Assembly: GCF_000716535.1 (NCBI RefSeq)
Contig: NZ_JNWV01000020.1
Span: 248,001-312,000 of the forward strand
Reading direction: 5' to 3'
DNA: 64,000 bases
Source: Streptomyces flaveolus
GTDB lineage: Bacteria > Actinomycetota > Actinomycetes > Streptomycetales > Streptomycetaceae
Shown here: positions 44,390-50,741 of the stretch, piece by piece
How the letters are laid out: each line of letters begins with the position of its first letter
Numbering within the stretch: the first letter of the stretch is position 1
Program-made: the position numbers and the translations under genes
The notes under the pieces: generated by a model
The model's input: the letters and a program-made list of their open reading frames with translations, nothing else
What the model was told of the DNA's origin: nothing
Database searches by the model: none

Positions 44390-45313
44390 ATGACCAGCCA
44401 CACCTCCCCCAGCCTCGCCGACGCCCTCGCCACCGGGACGGTCGTGCTCGACGGCGGCATGTCCAACCAGCTCGAGGCGGCCGGGCACGACCTCGGCGAC
44501 GAGCTGTGGTCGGCGCGGCTGCTCGCCGAGCGGCCCGACGCGGTCACCGAGGCCCACCTCGCCTACTTCCTGGCGGGCGCGAGCGTGGCCATCACGGCCA
44601 GCTACCAGGCCACCTTCGAGGGGTTCGGCAAGCGTGGCATCGGCCGCGAGGAAGCCGCGCGGCTGCTCGGCCTCAGCGTGGAACTGGCCCGTACGGCGGC
44701 CCGGCGGGCGGCGGACGCGGGCAGCGAGCGCCCGCTGTGGGTGGCCGCTTCCGTCGGCCCCTACGGGGCGATGCTCGCGGACGGCTCCGAGTACCGGGGC
44801 CGGTACGGGCTGAGCGTGGCCGAGCTGGAGCGGTTCCACCGGCCCCGGATCGAGGTGCTGGCCGCCGCCGAGCCGGACGTCCTGGCGCTGGAGACCGTCC
44901 CGGACGCCGACGAGGCCGCCGCGCTGCTGCGGGCGGTGCGGGGGCTGGGGGTGCCGGCCTGGCTGTCGTACACCGTCGAGGGCCTGCGGACGCGGGCCGG
45001 GCAGCCCCTGGAGGAGGCGTTCGGCCTCGCCGCCGATGCCGACGAGGTGATCGCGGTCGGCGTCAACTGCTGTGCGCCGGAGGATGTGCCGGGCGCGGTG
45101 GAGATCGCGGCGCGTGTGACCGGCAAGCCGGTCGTGGTGTACCCCAACAGCGGGGAGGCCTGGGACGCCCGGGCACGGACCTGGCGCGGGCGCACCACGT
45201 TCGGCGCCGAGCAGGTCAAGGCGTGGCGGGAGGCGGGAGCACGATTGATCGGAGGGTGCTGCCGGGTGGGGCCGGAGGCGATCGCGGGGATCGCCGGGGC
45301 GCTCGCCGCGTAG
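44390..45313 (+). CDS. mmuM: homocysteine S-methyltransferase
   Basis: The 307-residue protein belongs to the Pfam S-methyl_trans family: VVLDGGMSNQLEAAGHDL at the N-terminus, the zinc ligands VNCC (about 225) and GGCC near the end, and TASYQATFEGF and YPNSGEAWDA. MmuM-type enzymes methylate homocysteine with S-methylmethionine, giving methionine. The ATG at 44390 has no Shine-Dalgarno, and a TAG-type -10 element (GACTAGCGT) ends about 9 nt upstream, so the transcript may be leaderless. No S-methylmethionine permease is adjacent. Confidence 0.88.
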   Translation: MTSHTSPSLADALATGTVVLDGGMSNQLEAAGHDLGDELWSARLLAERPDAVTEAHLAYFLAGASVAITASYQATFEGFGKRGIGREEAARLLGLSVELARTAARRAADAGSERPLWVAASVGPYGAMLADGSEYRGRYGLSVAELERFHRPRIEVLAAAEPDVLALETVPDADEAAALLRAVRGLGVPAWLSYTVEGLRTRAGQPLEEAFGLAADADEVIAVGVNCCAPEDVPGAVEIAARVTGKPVVVYPNSGEAWDARARTWRGRTTFGAEQVKAWREAGARLIGGCCRVGPEAIAGIAGALAA

Positions 45314-45405
45314 GGGCGGGCCGGGCCGGTCGCTGCCGCGCCGGGGCCGGAGCCGTCTTGGAGAAGGCTTCGGCGAAGACGGACTGCGGGCCGGCCGCCG
45401 GTCCG

Positions 45406-45430
45406 CCGGCAGCGACGCGTCCGCTGCCGG
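45406..45430. terminator. hairpin between convergent genes
   Basis: CCGGCAGCG and CGCTGCCGG form a 9-bp perfect stem with a 7-nt loop, about 90 bp after the methyltransferase stop and 130 bp after the end of the bacteriocin cassette read from the other side. A bidirectional terminator is likely. The rest of 45314-45558 shows no gene. Confidence 0.5.
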
Positions 45431-45558
45431 GCACGCGTGTGCGGTGCGGATTCGGTGGCGGCGGCCGGCGGGTGAGGCGGGCGGACCGGACCGGTGACCG
45501 GCGACTCACGCCGCCCGGCCGGGCGCCGCACCGCCCCTCGGGCGACCGGGCGGGACGC

Positions 45559-45684
45559 TCAGAAGATCCTCGCCCCGATCCGCCCGAGGATGGTGAAGGC
45601 GTGTGTGCCGTAGACGGCGAAGACCGCGATGGCGGCGAGGGCGACCAGGGCGAGGGGAGCGGCCCAGGTGAGACGGATCTTCAT
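45559..45684 (-). CDS. 41-residue single-helix membrane peptide of the bacteriocin cassette
   Basis: ATG 45684 overlaps the ABC ATPase stop by 4 nt (ATGA) and has GGAAGG 8 nt upstream, so it is very likely translated. The peptide (MKIRLTWAAPLALVALAAIA...) has one transmembrane helix of about 20 residues and a basic C-terminal end (GRIGARIF). It is the last gene of the lactococcin 972-type cassette. No family is recognised; a role in immunity or in stabilising the transporter is inferred from position only. Confidence 0.7.
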   Translation of the reverse strand: MKIRLTWAAPLALVALAAIAVFAVYGTHAFTILGRIGARIF

Positions 45685-46349
45685 GCGAGCTGCCTTCCTT
45701 TCACAGGTTCGGGTCGGGTCGTGCTTCCGACGGTCAGAACGGTGTCGCAGCGGTCGCGGACCGCGTCGTTGTGGGTGGCGATGACGACGGCGCAGCCGTC
45801 CTCGCTCATCGTGCGCAGGATGTCGACGACCAGGGTGGTGTTGTCGTGGTCGAGCGCGCCGGTGGGCTCGTCGGCCAGGACGAGGGCGGGCTGCTTGACG
45901 ATGAGGCGGGCCAGGGCGACGCGCTGCTGTTCGCCACCGCTGAGCCGGTGCACCTGTTCCTTCTCCCGGCCTGCCAGCCCGACGCGGTCGAGCGCGTCGG
46001 CGACGGTCGGAGCGTTCGCCCTCTTCCGCCGTGGCCTCATGGCGACTTCCAGGTTGGCGGCGACGCTCGCGTTCTCGATCAGGGCGTAGTTCTGGAAGAG
46101 GTAGCCGAGGACGTCGCGCCGGTAGTGACGGGCGGCGCGCGGGCCGAAGCCCGTGATGTCCCGGCCCTCGTGGCGGATCGCGCCGGAGCTCGGGGTGTCG
46201 AGAAGGCCGAGGCAGTTCAGCAGCGTCGACTTGCCGGAGCCGCTCGGCCCGACCAGCGCCAGCAACTGGCCTCCCCGAACGGTGAATTCGAGGCCGGACC
46301 ACAGGGTACGCGGGCCGTAGGACTTGCGCAGGTTCTCAATCTCGATCAC
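45681..46349 (-). CDS. ABC transporter ATP-binding protein of the bacteriocin cassette
   Basis: The 222-residue MacB/LolD-type ATPase has Walker A GPSGSGKST, Q-loop LFQNYAL, signature LSGGEQQR, Walker B LVLADEPTG and H-loop THN. It starts with GTG and lies 28 bp after the DUF1430 membrane protein gene. Pairing with DUF1430 is the standard layout of lactococcin 972-type immunity/transport systems, where the complex is thought to protect the producer. Confidence 0.92.
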   Translation of the reverse strand: MIEIENLRKSYGPRTLWSGLEFTVRGGQLLALVGPSGSGKSTLLNCLGLLDTPSSGAIRHEGRDITGFGPRAARHYRRDVLGYLFQNYALIENASVAANLEVAMRPRRKRANAPTVADALDRVGLAGREKEQVHRLSGGEQQRVALARLIVKQPALVLADEPTGALDHDNTTLVVDILRTMSEDGCAVVIATHNDAVRDRCDTVLTVGSTTRPEPVKGRQLA

Positions 46350-46377
46350 GAGGTGGCTCCGATGGGACGGTGGCGGG

Positions 46378-48468
46378 TCACGACTCTGCCGCCCCTTCCT
46401 TGACGATCCGACGGTGGAAGAAGGCCAGGGCCGCGAGCACCGCGGCGATCTCTACGGCGACGAGTCCGGCGTTGGCGCCGAGGTCGAGGCCGGTGATGTG
46501 GACGGGTTCCGCGGGCGGTTTGAGGCCGGTTCTCCGGTACTCCTCCAGCTCCTGGTTCTGCCACCACACCTGGAAGGGCACCCATACGGCGAGGAGGACG
46601 GCCAGCAGCCCCTCGACGCCCAGGAGCGCACGGTGCGTGGCCGTGAACCGCCAGCCGCTGATGTACCGGGCGAAGATGGTCTGCGCGTTCTTCCGCGAGT
46701 GGACGATGCAGACCCCGACTCCGGTGATGAGCAGCACCACGACCGCCACGGCCAGGTTGAACAACTGGAGCCGGAAGTCGGCGACGAGGTCGCGGAGCTT
46801 GAGGGCCGCGTTCTGTCCGACCGGACTCATCCCGGTGACGTAGGTCTGCAGATGGTGCTCGGCGATCCCGTCCGTCACGTCGTCCGGGTTCTTGAAGACG
46901 AGACTCTGCTGGGAGGCGTAGGCGACGTAGCCCCGGTTGCTCAGGGAGGGCGAGCCGTCGGGGAAGACGACGACCACCGGGTCGGTGACGAACGACTCGT
47001 CCGCGTCGGGGTTGGTCATGGCCTGGAGCCGGCCCCGGGGGTTGTAGGTGAACAGTCGCTGGCCGTCCTGGGCCCGCAGAGCCGTCACCCGCTCGGCCGG
47101 GATCGCCTCCGGGCGGCTCGGGTTCAGCAGTTCCGGGACCGAGGCGGCGAGACGGTCGGTGTACCGGTCGAGGTCCGCGGGGACGAGCAGTCTCACCCGG
47201 GCCTGGTCGGCCGTGGTCGCGGGGACCCGCCGCCCCGCGGCGTCGAGCACGGGCTGTGCCGCGAGATAGGACTGGTTGACGATCAGCAGGTCGCGGTCCG
47301 GGAGGCCGGCCAGGTCGCCCAGGTGCCGGAGCCTGCGGTGCCCGGCGACGATGATCTGCCCGTCCCCGTCGGCCTCGCGGAGCCAGCCGCCCACCTTCTC
47401 GTCCAGGACTTCGAAGGCGCCCTCGCTCGCCGTGCTGCCGTTGAGGGCGATCGCGGTCGTGTCGCCGATGTTCCGGTACGTCTCGATGCTGGCTTCCCGG
47501 CTCGCGATGTTCTGACCGGCCATGACGACGTCGCCGGCGATGCTCACCGCGAGCAGGAGGGCGGGGATCCGTACCAGATAGGTGCTCATCGCGGCGGTCC
47601 GGGCCGGGAGTTCGCCCTTCAGCGCGCGCAGCAGTCCGGTCTGGGAGGTGAGCTGGAGCGTGATCGCGTGCACGGCGACGGAGACGAGACCGAGGACGGC
47701 GGCGAGACCCAGGGCGACGAGGGTGAAGACGCCGATCCAGGCCAGTCCGTTGTAGAGGCCGAGCAGCAGCAGAACCAGGGCGGTCACCCCGCCGAAGGCC
47801 GCCGCCCAGAAGGTGGCCAGTTGCCGCAGGTCCCGCAGCAGTATCTGCCCGAACGACCTGCCCTGGAGGCGCTGCACCCCGTATCCCTTGGCGCTGAGCA
47901 TGACGCCGGCGCCCGTCATCGTCACGACGGCGAGGGTGACGACGAAGAAGGAGCGGAGCAGGGCGCTGTCGGAGTAGGCCGGGGTGAGCTGCCCGAGCGA
48001 GTAGGGGCGGTAGGGCGCCGCCTCGAACCCGAGATCCGTGAACGTCCGGACCAGTTCGTCGACGTCCCGGTCCGAGCCGAACACGTAGTAGTAGCCACGC
48101 GGGTCGCGGTTGCCCAGCTCGGCGACGGGGTGCACGTCGGTGCGGTAGTCGCGGTCGAAGGCGGGGTAACCGTCGCGCAGCCAGTCGGAGTGGGGTCCGC
48201 CGGGGGCCAGATAGAGATGCCGACGGCTGTACGGCTCCTTGAGGTCGGGGGTCTCGCGCGCGACCGTCGCCTGGTGGGACTGGGCGAACTCGGCCAGGAC
48301 ACGGGTGACGTGCGCCCCGCTGGTCTCCCCCTTGGTGTCCGTCACCCAGACGACGGCCGTGTGCCCCATGACCCAGCGTCCGTCGAGGTCTCGGAGGAAC
48401 AGGAAGGAGAGCACTGCGGAGAACGCCAGTACGGCGGCGTGAACGAACTTGATACTTCGGTGCAGCAT
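46378..48468 (-). CDS. bacteriocin-associated integral membrane protein (DUF1430-like)
   Basis: The 696-residue protein has an N-terminal helix (VLAFSAVLSFLFL), a large extracytoplasmic domain, a cluster of helices around residues 165-315 (SFFVVTLAVVTMTGAGVML; AFGGVTALVLLLLGLYNGLA), a second soluble domain and three C-terminal helices (FNLAVAVVVLLITGVGVCIV; LLAVLLAVWVPF; LVAVEIAAVLAALAFF). This MacB-like split membrane layout matches the bacteriocin-associated immunity family found next to Lcn972-type genes. It works with the downstream ATPase. A strong hairpin separates it from the bacteriocin gene. Confidence 0.85.
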   Translation of the reverse strand: MLHRSIKFVHAAVLAFSAVLSFLFLRDLDGRWVMGHTAVVWVTDTKGETSGAHVTRVLAEFAQSHQATVARETPDLKEPYSRRHLYLAPGGPHSDWLRDGYPAFDRDYRTDVHPVAELGNRDPRGYYYVFGSDRDVDELVRTFTDLGFEAAPYRPYSLGQLTPAYSDSALLRSFFVVTLAVVTMTGAGVMLSAKGYGVQRLQGRSFGQILLRDLRQLATFWAAAFGGVTALVLLLLGLYNGLAWIGVFTLVALGLAAVLGLVSVAVHAITLQLTSQTGLLRALKGELPARTAAMSTYLVRIPALLLAVSIAGDVVMAGQNIASREASIETYRNIGDTTAIALNGSTASEGAFEVLDEKVGGWLREADGDGQIIVAGHRRLRHLGDLAGLPDRDLLIVNQSYLAAQPVLDAAGRRVPATTADQARVRLLVPADLDRYTDRLAASVPELLNPSRPEAIPAERVTALRAQDGQRLFTYNPRGRLQAMTNPDADESFVTDPVVVVFPDGSPSLSNRGYVAYASQQSLVFKNPDDVTDGIAEHHLQTYVTGMSPVGQNAALKLRDLVADFRLQLFNLAVAVVVLLITGVGVCIVHSRKNAQTIFARYISGWRFTATHRALLGVEGLLAVLLAVWVPFQVWWQNQELEEYRRTGLKPPAEPVHITGLDLGANAGLVAVEIAAVLAALAFFHRRIVKEGAAES

Positions 48469-48524
48469 CGACGACCCAGATCGGGGAGCGCAGCTCCGGG
48501 AGGGCAGAACGGGCAGGGAGTGGA

Positions 48525-48562
48525 CCGCCCGCGGGGAGACATGGCATTCTCTCCGCGGGCGG
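48525..48562 (-). terminator. hairpin between bacteriocin and immunity/transport genes
   Basis: CCGCCCGCGGGGAGA and TCTCTCCGCGGGCGG form a 15-bp stem with one mismatch and an 8-nt loop. Placed after the bacteriocin stop and before the DUF1430 gene on the same strand, it would act as a partial terminator or mRNA stabiliser, making bacteriocin mRNA more abundant than the membrane-protein mRNA. Confidence 0.65.
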
Positions 48563-48610
48563 AGGCGCTCACCTCACCACGAGGGACAGGGGCTCATCGG
48601 CCCCGGTGGG

Positions 48611-48922
48611 TCAGCAGCTCGTCTTGTAGTACGTCTTGTTGCCGTACAGCGCAGCGTCGGCCTGGGTGATGCTCCAGTTGCCCGCGCTCGCCTCGTCGGT
48701 GTCGATGTACTCACCGACGGACGTCGAGCCGTGGCACCGGCTGGACAGGTAGTAGTCCGACCACACGTACGAGGTGCCGGCTCCGTGGTCCCAGGTGCCA
48801 CCCTCCGCCGGGTAGGAGATGGTGGCCAGGGCCGGCGTGGCACCGGCGATGACGAGGGCACCGGCGGCAATCGCGACCTTCAGGCTGCGCTTGGTCTTCA
48901 CAGGGATCTTCTCTCTCTCCAT
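48611..48922 (-). CDS. lactococcin 972-family bacteriocin precursor
   Basis: The 103-residue precursor has a basic N-region, a signal-peptide core (VAIAAGALVIAGA) and a cleavage site after ATPALA (residue 33), giving a 70-residue mature peptide rich in Gly, Ser, Thr and aromatic residues. EGGTWDHG near the mature N-terminus and the SYVWSDYYLSSRCHGS and ALYGNKTYYK segments match Lcn972-type peptides, secreted by Sec; Lcn972 itself binds lipid II and blocks septation. Two Cys (63 and the last residue, 103) could form a disulfide. ATG 48922 is used; GTG 48901, with GGAGAG upstream, is a possible start. Confidence 0.88.
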   Translation of the reverse strand: MEREKIPVKTKRSLKVAIAAGALVIAGATPALATISYPAEGGTWDHGAGTSYVWSDYYLSSRCHGSTSVGEYIDTDEASAGNWSITQADAALYGNKTYYKTSC

Positions 48923-48936
48923 GACATGATCTCGCC

Positions 48937-48981
48937 TTTGGCTTGATATGGGCCTTGTTTGGCTTGATCTTGATCTTGATC
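48937..48981 (-). repeat. direct repeats in the bacteriocin 5' region
   Basis: TTTGGCTTGAT occurs at 48937-48947 and 48958-48968, exactly 21 bp apart, two helical turns. The second copy leads into three tandem TTGATC units (48964-48981). The stretch is AT-rich against its surroundings and lies 15-60 nt upstream of the bacteriocin start. It looks like a regulator-binding array or structured leader. Confidence 0.6.
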
Positions 48982-48988
48982 GAGCAGG

Positions 48989-49017
48989 ACTCTCCCAAGG
49001 ACCTAAAGGTCTGTCAA
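48989..49017 (-). promoter_or_regulatory. bacteriocin promoter with spacer dyad
   Basis: On the minus strand a perfect -35 TTGACA (49017-49012) is followed after 17 bp by GAGAGT (48994-48989), a weak -10. The spacer begins with the dyad GACCTTTAGGTC (49011-49000), a possible operator. A weak -10 with an operator fits an activator-dependent promoter. The 250 bp between the bacteriocin and carboxylesterase genes hold nothing else clear. Confidence 0.5.
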
Positions 49018-49172
49018 GTTTTCGGTAATACAACGGACTTGGAGCCCAAAAGGTGCTTAGCGATCTTCACAAGGGCTGCACATCTGACGGCCCGTCACCG
49101 GCGGGAGAAGAGGTCGCGGACAGCCGTGCTCACGGGAGCAACCGCTGCGGCAGGCACGGTTCTTGAACGCCG

Positions 49173-50741
49173 TCAGCGGCGCCGGGCCGCCACCGAGCGC
49201 CGCAGACGCCGTACCGCTGCCGCCAGCTCGGCCCCCGGCGCCCGGACCTCGGACGCGGGGCCGGGCTCCGGGACGGTGCGGGCCGCCGGCCAGAGGCCGA
49301 TCTCCGCGTCCCGTGGACCGTGCGCGGTACGCGGCACTCCGTCGCCGAAGACCCGCACCGGGTGGGTCGCGTCCCAGGCCGCCCAGCCGGGGTCCCCGGT
49401 CGTCACGAACCGCACCCAGGCGGTGTGCATCGCGTCGGCCAGCTCCTGCGGGGCGCCCTCACCGGCCAGCTTCCGCGACTCGGGCACGTCCCCGCTGTCG
49501 AAGACGAACCCCAGCTCCAGGGCATGGCAGGCACCGAGGCCGGGCAACCGGGAGGGCCACGCGAACTCGTACAGGTGACTGGCGCCGGGGCGGGCGTCGG
49601 CGATCCGGTGCAGCGGCACCCGAAGCAGGTGGTCGGTGACCATCTGGCCGACGATCTCGGCGGTCCCGGCGTCCGGATGCAGCGCCCGGTAGCCGCGCGG
49701 TATCTCGTGCCCGGCGTGGCAGCGGGCCATCGCCCCGGCCAGGGCGACCGCGCCGAGCCGGTCGACGTGCTCCAGCAGTCCCCCGGGCACCAGCCACAGC
49801 CGGTACTCGTCCCGGGTCCACCCCATGAGCAGTTCGACGTCCGGGGCGGCGGCGCCTTCGGTCAGCGCCTTCAACGGGTCGCCGGGCACGAGGTCGCCGT
49901 CCACGACGATGCCGAACCCGGGTCCGCCCAGCACCGGGCTGCTGAGCCGTCCGACCTCGGCCTGTGTGCGCAGCAGCAGTTCACGGTCGACCGCCGCGAA
50001 CGCCTCGGCGGTGGCGGGGATCTTCAGCCGGGCGGCCATCCGGCGCACCATCCGCCGCACCTTGTCCCGCTCGCAGACCTCGGGCGCGCCGCTCTGCAGG
50101 ACCGCCCGCCGGACCAGGCCGCGCGTCTGGGGCGCGGCGAGGAGGACGCCTGCGCTGATGGCCCCGGCCGACTGGCCGCACAGGGTGATCCGGCCGGGGT
50201 CGCCGCCGAAGGCCTCGATCGTCTCGTGCACCCAGCGCAGCGCGGCGAGCTGGTCGCGCAGGCCGGGGTTCGGGGGCGCGTCGGGGAACAGTCCGTAGCC
50301 CTCCACCCCCAGACGGTAGTTGACCGAGACGCAGACGACCCCGTCGCGGGCGAAGGTGCTGCCGTCGTACACGGGCACCGCCGAGGAACCCCTGGTCAGC
50401 GCGCCGCCGTGCAGCCAGACCAGCACCGGGAGCCGGGCGCCGGGGCCCGGCTCGGGGGTCCAGACGTTCAGGTTGAGGCAGTCGTCGCCGGGGATCACGG
50501 GGTCGGACAGGTACTGGGCGAACGCCTCGGAGTACGGCGGCTTCGGCGCGGTCGGCCCGAAGGCGCCGGCGTCCCGGACCCCGTCCCAGGGCTCGGGCGG
50601 CCGGGGCGGGCGGAACCGCAGGGGGCCGAAGGGCGGGGCGGCGTACGGGATGCCCCGGAAGACCGCGATCCCCCGCTCGTACCTGCCGCGTACGGCCCCG
50701 TGGGGCGTTTCGACCACGGGGCCCGTCCGGTCTGCCGCCAT
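49173..50741 (-). CDS. type-B carboxylesterase
   Basis: The 522-residue cytoplasmic esterase/lipase family protein has FRGIPYAAPPFGPLRFRPP, DDCLNLNVWTPE, oxyanion loop VWLHGGALTRGSS, nucleophile elbow LCGQSAGAISAG and ACHALELGFVF with the catalytic His. Type-B esterases hydrolyse varied carboxyl esters. No signal peptide is seen, so it is intracellular. ATG 50741 is chosen; a GTG seven codons upstream has no ribosome site. Divergent from the LacI regulator, with a LacI-type operator between. A fragment of this gene is duplicated at 52090-52177. Confidence 0.88.
   Translation of the reverse strand: MAADRTGPVVETPHGAVRGRYERGIAVFRGIPYAAPPFGPLRFRPPRPPEPWDGVRDAGAFGPTAPKPPYSEAFAQYLSDPVIPGDDCLNLNVWTPEPGPGARLPVLVWLHGGALTRGSSAVPVYDGSTFARDGVVCVSVNYRLGVEGYGLFPDAPPNPGLRDQLAALRWVHETIEAFGGDPGRITLCGQSAGAISAGVLLAAPQTRGLVRRAVLQSGAPEVCERDKVRRMVRRMAARLKIPATAEAFAAVDRELLLRTQAEVGRLSSPVLGGPGFGIVVDGDLVPGDPLKALTEGAAAPDVELLMGWTRDEYRLWLVPGGLLEHVDRLGAVALAGAMARCHAGHEIPRGYRALHPDAGTAEIVGQMVTDHLLRVPLHRIADARPGASHLYEFAWPSRLPGLGACHALELGFVFDSGDVPESRKLAGEGAPQELADAMHTAWVRFVTTGDPGWAAWDATHPVRVFGDGVPRTAHGPRDAEIGLWPAARTVPEPGPASEVRAPGAELAAAVRRLRRSVAARRR

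Follow-up and report, generated by a model that had tools for sequence, protein, structure and literature searches.

Does a streptomycete carry a complete lactococcin 972 (Lcn972)-type bacteriocin cassette, and what do the genes beside the bacteriocin do? The question is raised by four minus-strand genes in a 64,000-nucleotide stretch of Streptomyces flaveolus DNA (hereafter the window), which span 48.92 to 45.56 kb and are preceded by an AT-rich stretch. A first-pass annotation had read them as a cassette running in a single direction, and all four genes are present: a putative secreted Lcn972-like protein, a permease, an ATP-binding cassette (ABC) ATPase, and a membrane micropeptide. The locus is a cassette of known type to which one new conserved component is added; we infer each of its functions. 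Tight linkage was found between a protein of the Lcn972 fold, which has a signal-peptide-like leader and an invariant pair of cysteines, and two transporter proteins, an FtsX/MacB-superfamily permease and an ATPase. In the window's lineage, the coupled micropeptide belongs to this tightly linked unit, and loss of the bacteriocin can leave the other three genes in place. As a whole, the locus is best explained as a horizontally acquired Lcn972-type bacteriocin and immunity cassette, which we consider fairly probable. Loci and genomes are given by our L and G numbers, and papers given by PMC number are cited for the passages that bear on the point.

The 103-residue product of the first gene matched the Pfam family PF09683 (Lcn972) with an E-value of 9.9e-14 and 52.1 bits against a cut-off of 22, and scored 28.1 bits, slightly below the cut-off of 32.1, with the NCBIfam model TIGR01653. 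It also has the beta-sandwich fold that marks members of the family. With this significant Pfam match, its membership in the Lcn972 bacteriocin family, as first proposed, is well supported, and the match is the sole one to PF09683 in the 10.35-Mb host genome. A charged start, a hydrophobic core, and an ALA cut site were recognized by eye as a putative Sec leader, which is conserved in the alignment. Thirty-three of 44 homologues are 94–96 residues long and start at about GTG 48901, and translation may begin at this GTG (96 residues) in place of the ATG (103 residues). Cys63 and Cys103 (ATG numbering) are invariant in 45 of 45 aligned sequences. The positions of these cysteines had been given correctly, but the pair, which had been called unusual, is a conserved feature of the subfamily. 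With the count restricted to the 82 of 85 rows that scored 45 bits or more, and duplicates collapsed, 66 of 71 distinct Lcn972 domains had two or four cysteines. The five odd-numbered domains are a fragment or fusion (L099), a domain with its sole cysteine in the leader (L104), a frameshifted copy (L058), one with a cysteine in the membrane anchor (L103), and a true exception with three (L036). Six more rows failed the motif filter; by eye, five of them have two cysteines and one is a fragment with one. The protein is very probably a bacteriocin.

Other arrangements of Lcn972-type genes were also seen. In Nocardiopsis (L092, L093, L094, L095, and L100; about 9.9–10.6 kb), two tandem Lcn972-type genes, both with the cysteine pair, lie 5′ of the permease and possibly encode a two-component bacteriocin. 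A gene of the family occurs in 350 Staphylococcus plasmid records, with 43% identity over two thirds of the query among the matches listed.

The relatives of the window by sequence are Streptomyces. Of 392 Streptomyces genomes, 47 contain PF09683, with 54 matches in all; in a set of 396 genomes from across the phylum, 4 contain it. The window's own genome is part of both counts, and the remaining 53 matches were examined in 51 wider loci. Cassettes account for 21 of the 54 matches, counting that of the window, and are spread over 19 genomes; one of these copies is decayed. The other 33 matches are orphan genes, whose precursor is longer and for which the fetched stretch showed no permease match; the ABC ATPases near a few of them (e.g., L055, 57 bits; L057, 204 bits) were taken as unrelated. 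This orphan class (e.g., L032–L036, L038, and L041–L044) also has a different cysteine pair and no adjacent permease, and its precursors often carry a segment like GDGxxPPAELGxPxEWGVV.

When the 392 genomes were searched with a permease profile at E ≤ 1e-30, with two candidates scored in each genome, 23 matches in 21 genomes were obtained, 21 of them full length; the others were a half-permease (G074) and the decayed copy in G195. Nineteen of the 21 full-length permeases adjoin a cassette bacteriocin gene. The significant family match and this conserved linkage to permease and ATPase support the original reading of the locus as a bacteriocin cassette. G378 has an immunity-only locus of permease, ATPase, and micropeptide, at which neither a profile nor tblastn gave any trace of the bacteriocin; the same genome has a different cassette at another place. 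In G271, only the last 40 bacteriocin residues are left. At both loci, the permease, ATPase, and micropeptide frames are full length. No intact cassette-type bacteriocin without a permease was found among the 54 matches. This asymmetry is predicted for a toxin and its immunity. The same asymmetry is seen in pneumococcus, in which 157 of 571 genomes have scbBC only (PMC11796350). Two Lcn972 cassettes without the micropeptide were also seen on Streptomyces plasmids of 107.5 and 114.2 kb (L111 and L112), with the permease annotated merely as a hypothetical protein; L111 also has a divergent second bacteriocin gene.

The start of the micropeptide gene overlaps the ATPase stop codon as ATGA. The 12 non-identical micropeptide genes, all overlapping the ATPase stop, encode 39–41 residues, of which Met1, Arg4, Val21, Tyr25, Gly26, Arg35, and Phe41 are invariant; four different codons underlie Val21 and three underlie Gly26. 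The dN/dS value was not low and not decisive. A profile search yielded 46 proteins, 39–42 residues long bar two of 55, which are from Streptomyces where the organism is named, and none of them has a Pfam domain. The window's micropeptide had no match in Pfam, NCBIfam, or PHROG, its profile had none in the PDB, and among the open-licence PMC papers listed, no description of the micropeptide or of a characterized Streptomyces Lcn972 cassette was found.

Ten of the 392 genomes carry the micropeptide in 11 copies, all of which adjoin an ATPase gene or its remnant. The copies are distributed over six genomes with window-type cassettes (two in G195, one of them in a decayed cassette), the two immunity-only loci, and G203 and G226, where each is a remnant next to an ATPase fragment. 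Beside the ATPase, it was found in none of 13 other Streptomyces cassettes and in neither of two plasmid cassettes; in G378, which is among the 13 genomes with these other cassettes, it is confined to the solo transporter. When the presence of the micropeptide was mapped on the permease tree, 2 changes were required, compared to 10.4 for shuffled labels, and 0 of 500 shuffles were as low, by a quick method that gave long-branch warnings. The 15 Streptomyces-type permeases without the micropeptide form one starred clade, and the micropeptide may have a single origin. Fisher's test of the micropeptide by cassette type gave a p-value of 3.7e-5, but since the data tested also defined the cassette types, this value is descriptive, and the tree count should be preferred. 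In a decayed duplicate cassette of Streptomyces sp. F001 (second copy, L058/L091), bacteriocin, permease, and ATPase are broken and the micropeptide frame is open. In Corynebacterium uropygiale (L103, 9875–10252), a gene for a membrane-anchored Lcn972 domain occupies the micropeptide position, likewise overlapping the ATPase stop, and could conceivably serve as a decoy or in immunity.

The membrane protein had been assigned to DUF1430, an assignment that was not reproduced with Pfam (no DUF1430 match at E ≤ 1). The NCBIfam model TIGR01654 ("bacteriocin-associated integral membrane protein") matched with an E-value of 8.6e-14 and 50.9 bits against a cut-off of 189.35, and because this is far below the cut-off, the permease is a remote relative, not a member, of TIGR01654/DUF1430. 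Its AlphaFold2 model (pLDDT 85.8) contains eight long helices in two MacB-like four-helix modules, each with an extracytoplasmic domain. Foldseek retrieved YbbP (E-value 1.3e-8), BceB (9.3e-5), and MacB (1.9e-4), and LolC/E and FtsX were also matched. Judged by the modelled modules, the protein is an FtsX/MacB-superfamily (type VII) ABC permease. Matches to YD/RHS repeats in the permease were short and marginal and were treated as chance. The ATPase matched Pfam ABC_tran with an E-value of 8.8e-33, and its best NCBIfam match was the Lcn972-type ABC model TIGR03608, with 217.9 bits below the cut-off of 254.85. Directly 5′ of the permease start, many cassettes have a recurring element GCGCTCC...GTGCCC...CCTAGGCAAT (with variants), possibly a translation-control element, which is at this place in L045, L063, L071, L087, L089, and L090 and partly present in the window (48469–48500).

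The genes flanking the cassette are convergent: a homocysteine S-methyltransferase on the left (by eye; homologous to 45305) and a carboxylesterase on the right (PF00135, from 49173). In relatives, the gap between these flanks is 17 bp in G016 (88–89% identity) and 124 bp in G003; between aligned ends, it is 505, 467, and 558 bp in G023, G025, and G013, respectively, the end of the esterase gene being unaligned. The flanks are 1.3–5.7 kb apart in G007, G014, G021, G011, and G026, 36 kb apart in G009, and separated by 4.5 kb of other DNA in G032. Among 60 relatives, the only long match to the cassette DNA was in G031, with 69% identity and at another place. In Streptomyces sp. Ru62 (L052/L082), a cassette lies at the same place with 93.7% nucleotide identity over 6.6 kb; peptide and permease are 96% identical in protein sequence, and all four frames are open in both strains. 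The cassette is an insertion and was probably acquired horizontally. The insert in G032 (L107, 3140–7600) encodes a LacI-like regulator and a 951-residue protein (by eye); with this different insert at the same site, the site may be an insertion hotspot.

The 110 nucleotides 3′ of the window's bacteriocin stop have a minimum free energy of −52.4 kcal/mol (z −3.31). The strong hairpin that had been noted between the bacteriocin and immunity genes is therefore real, but it is a conserved feature of the subfamily and not unusual. Among 25 Streptomyces cassettes, 22 reached a z of −2 or lower for the corresponding segment, which extends into the permease gene at some loci and was thus more stable than its shuffles (the misses being L087, L075, and L077). 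Of 9 loci of other genera, only 2 did so (L097 and L101), in part because the segment covers a second bacteriocin gene at some of them. Nine of the 12 window-type intergenic regions were aligned (L049, L083, and L084 were omitted) and form two stacked hairpins and a short third helix. Eight of the 23 consensus pairs are changed on both sides, all in the two main hairpins. Shuffled controls gave a mean of 3.6 and reached 8 in 0 of 500 cases, a control that sequence relatedness can inflate; slid partners, which keep the relatedness, gave 0–2. An Rfam search of 45300–49300 returned only two chance-level matches, so the hairpins fit no described RNA family above chance.

The GC content is 52% and 49% in the two 100-base steps before the bacteriocin gene and 74–85% in the three steps before those, in agreement with the AT-rich control region described earlier. 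The two upstream direct repeats are 81% alike. A sigma-70 scan gave no match, its consensus being of the E. coli type and uninformative for Streptomyces; of the "repeat-rich promoter" in the first-pass annotation, the repeats are thus present and the promoter is presumptive. The hexamer TGATCA, chosen from all 6-mers, occurs in 8 of 11 window-type upstream regions of 200 nucleotides (L052 omitted as a near-copy of the window), compared with 3 of 13 other cassettes, with 11 sites against 1.14 expected. It was found near 2 of 26 orphan genes (26 of the 33 orphans), in 250 nucleotides before the point 180 codons from the gene end, which is not a like-for-like control. The window's own upstream region is without TGATCA and has only GATCAA/GATCAT variants, GATCAA standing in tandem inside the two repeats, for which reason a shared operator is a lead only. 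Repeats containing GATC are also found upstream of related cassettes. The coordinates are collected in Table 1.

Table 1. Features of the cassette and its surroundings, in window coordinates.
Feature	Position	Strand	Basis or remark
Lcn972-family bacteriocin gene	48611..48922	-	103 codons from ATG; PF09683 E-value 9.9e-14 and homologues
Alternative GTG start of bacteriocin	48901	-	96 codons
Predicted Sec signal peptide, residues 1–33, cut after ALA	48824..48922	-	by eye; leader conserved in homologues
Predicted 70-residue mature domain, six-stranded beta sandwich	48614..48823	-	
Cys63 codon	48734..48736	-	invariant, 45/45 aligned sequences
C-terminal Cys103 codon	48614..48616	-	invariant, 45/45 aligned sequences
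Intergenic RNA hairpin 1, directly 3′ of bacteriocin stop	48586..48607	-	folding and covariation
Intergenic RNA hairpin 2 (strong hairpin of the first-pass annotation)	48525..48562	-	folding and covariation
Permease, 696 residues	46378..48468	-	TIGR01654 E-value 8.6e-14, below cut-off; AlphaFold2 pLDDT 85.8
ABC ATPase, 222 residues	45681..46349	-	ABC_tran E-value 8.8e-33; best NCBIfam match TIGR03608 L_ocin_972_ABC, below cut-off
41-residue single-helix membrane micropeptide	45559..45684	-	conserved family; ATGA overlap with ATPase stop
AT-rich upstream region with GATC-containing repeats	48923..49070	-	
Two 21-nt direct repeats with GATCAA-type sites	48937..48978	-	
Whole inserted segment	45306..49172	.	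17 bp in its place in relative G016

The Lcn972 operon consists of a bacteriocin gene and two putative immunity/ABC genes (PMC4055356). Compared with this operon on pBL1 of Lactococcus lactis (lcn972-orf2-orf3), the window has a conserved cysteine pair in the peptide, a fourth gene for the micropeptide, a structured intergenic region, a location as an insertion in a large Streptomyces contig, and a permease that resembles the family model only remotely. Antibacterial activity was reported for streptococcin B (scbABC) and mediterrocin (PMC11796350, PMC12345188), which likewise combine an Lcn972-family bacteriocin with an ABC protein and a membrane protein predicted to confer immunity; they differ in being Firmicute loci with their own regulators, and no micropeptide is mentioned in the passages of these two papers. 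In no Lcn972 locus had the roles of the membrane and ABC proteins been verified, according to PMC11796350. Cluster 16 of Streptomyces albus J1074 (SSHG_03731), an antiSMASH entry, is of the same family and genus but appears as a single gene (PMC3992020), and Lcn972-like genes also occur in Corynebacterium genomes (PMC12188740). TMcin (PMC12328743) was checked and, from the passages concerned, is unrelated. Formosin D (PDB 9HKJ) is a close known system, known here from its PDB title alone, and a literature search for "formosin" found nothing on it. For the transporter, BceAB and YsaDCB also combine a single-chain FtsX/MacB-superfamily permease with an ATPase, and BceB was among the best structure matches; these systems, however, work with two-component systems, none of which directly adjoins the window cassette (by eye). 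Expression of the Bce-like transporter YsaDCB in Lactococcus raised the IC50 of Lcn972 about 5-fold (PMC7438565). The micropeptide can be likened, by analogy, to VraH, the small membrane protein that is the third component of the Staphylococcus aureus ABC detoxification complex VraDEH (PMC5786555). VraH differs in its C-terminal motif and is needed against gallidermin but not against nisin or bacitracin, and VraDEH is a resistance module.

The cassette may work as follows. The peptide would be exported by Sec, fold into a disulfide-closed beta sandwich, and, like Lcn972, bind to the lipid II of Gram-positive competitors; lipid II is a somewhat favored candidate for its target. The permease, one chain of two MacB-like halves, and the ATPase subunits would form a mechanical machine in the manner of BceAB, stripping the peptide from lipid II of the producer and giving immunity by target protection, not export. 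A role of the ABC unit in immunity is likely. The micropeptide may be a membrane-anchored accessory subunit of this machine, as VraH is for VraDE, a role to which we give an even chance. The paired hairpins could lower read-through or stabilize the upstream message, such that the bacteriocin would outnumber the immunity protein. Only tentatively do we put forward the combined model: a three-part immunity machine, made of a pseudo-dimeric fused permease, an ATPase, and an obligate membrane subunit of 39–41 residues that is a new Streptomyces micropeptide family kept after toxin loss, which would serve a disulfide-locked, lipid-II-binding Lcn972 of a fold that acquired its cysteine pair at differing positions in different Streptomyces classes.

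The ABC unit could instead be a dedicated exporter of the bacteriocin. MacB relatives are able to export peptides, and TIGR03608, the model closest to the ATPase, is named "putative bacteriocin export ABC transporter" at NCBI; the precursor, however, has a putative Sec-type leader (by eye), and the transporter is retained where the bacteriocin is lost or truncated, which makes export by this unit rather improbable. Slightly less improbable, but still unlikely, is that the micropeptide is a second secreted peptide, either a partner bacteriocin or a pheromone sensed via the permease, and not a subunit. The tandem Lcn972 genes of Nocardiopsis and the membrane-anchored Lcn972 domain gene at the same ATPase-overlapping position in C. 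uropygiale can be read in its favor, as can the small secreted protein YsaD, which partners a Bce-like transporter and modulates signalling (PMC7438565). Against it, the micropeptide is kept beside the transporter where the bacteriocin is lost; no regulator gene directly adjoins the cassette in the window (by eye); and a threonine precedes the most plausible signal-peptidase cut in 3 of the 12 sequences, which argues against release in those three.

Two further explanations concern the locus as a whole. A silent passenger without present function would agree with its being an insertion and with the remnants in other genomes, but the four open frames kept in both the window and Ru62 at the nucleotide divergence given above, with peptide and permease so similar in protein sequence, make this very unlikely. 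Least probable of all, and hardly to be expected, is that the protein serves Streptomyces in development or septation and is not a weapon. Inhibition of septum formation by Lcn972 in lactococci is stated in the title of a paper cited in PMC11796350, and the family occurs in Streptomyces, but PF09683 is in only 47 of the 392 genomes and the cassette form in 19, relatives have the site without the cassette, and decayed copies exist (L058, L124, and L127). Of the two roles proposed at first for the peptide, control of the producer's own septation therefore finds no support, and use against competitors is plausible. An Lcn972-family protein of Bacillus velezensis inhibits Streptomyces scabies with a minimum inhibitory concentration of 10.58 µg/mL (PMC9372549), and streptomycetes can thus be targets.

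The bacteriocin and immunity cassette is therefore the reading that we prefer, and the Streptomyces loci lend themselves to natural comparisons suited to testing Lcn972 immunity: cassettes that have or lack the micropeptide, transporters that outlived their bacteriocin, and classes that differ in cysteine placement. If the micropeptide is a required subunit, the transporter would join the few detoxification transporters that depend on a micropeptide. A disulfide-closed Lcn972 protein may, in addition, make a more robust antibacterial than the original, which lacks cysteines.

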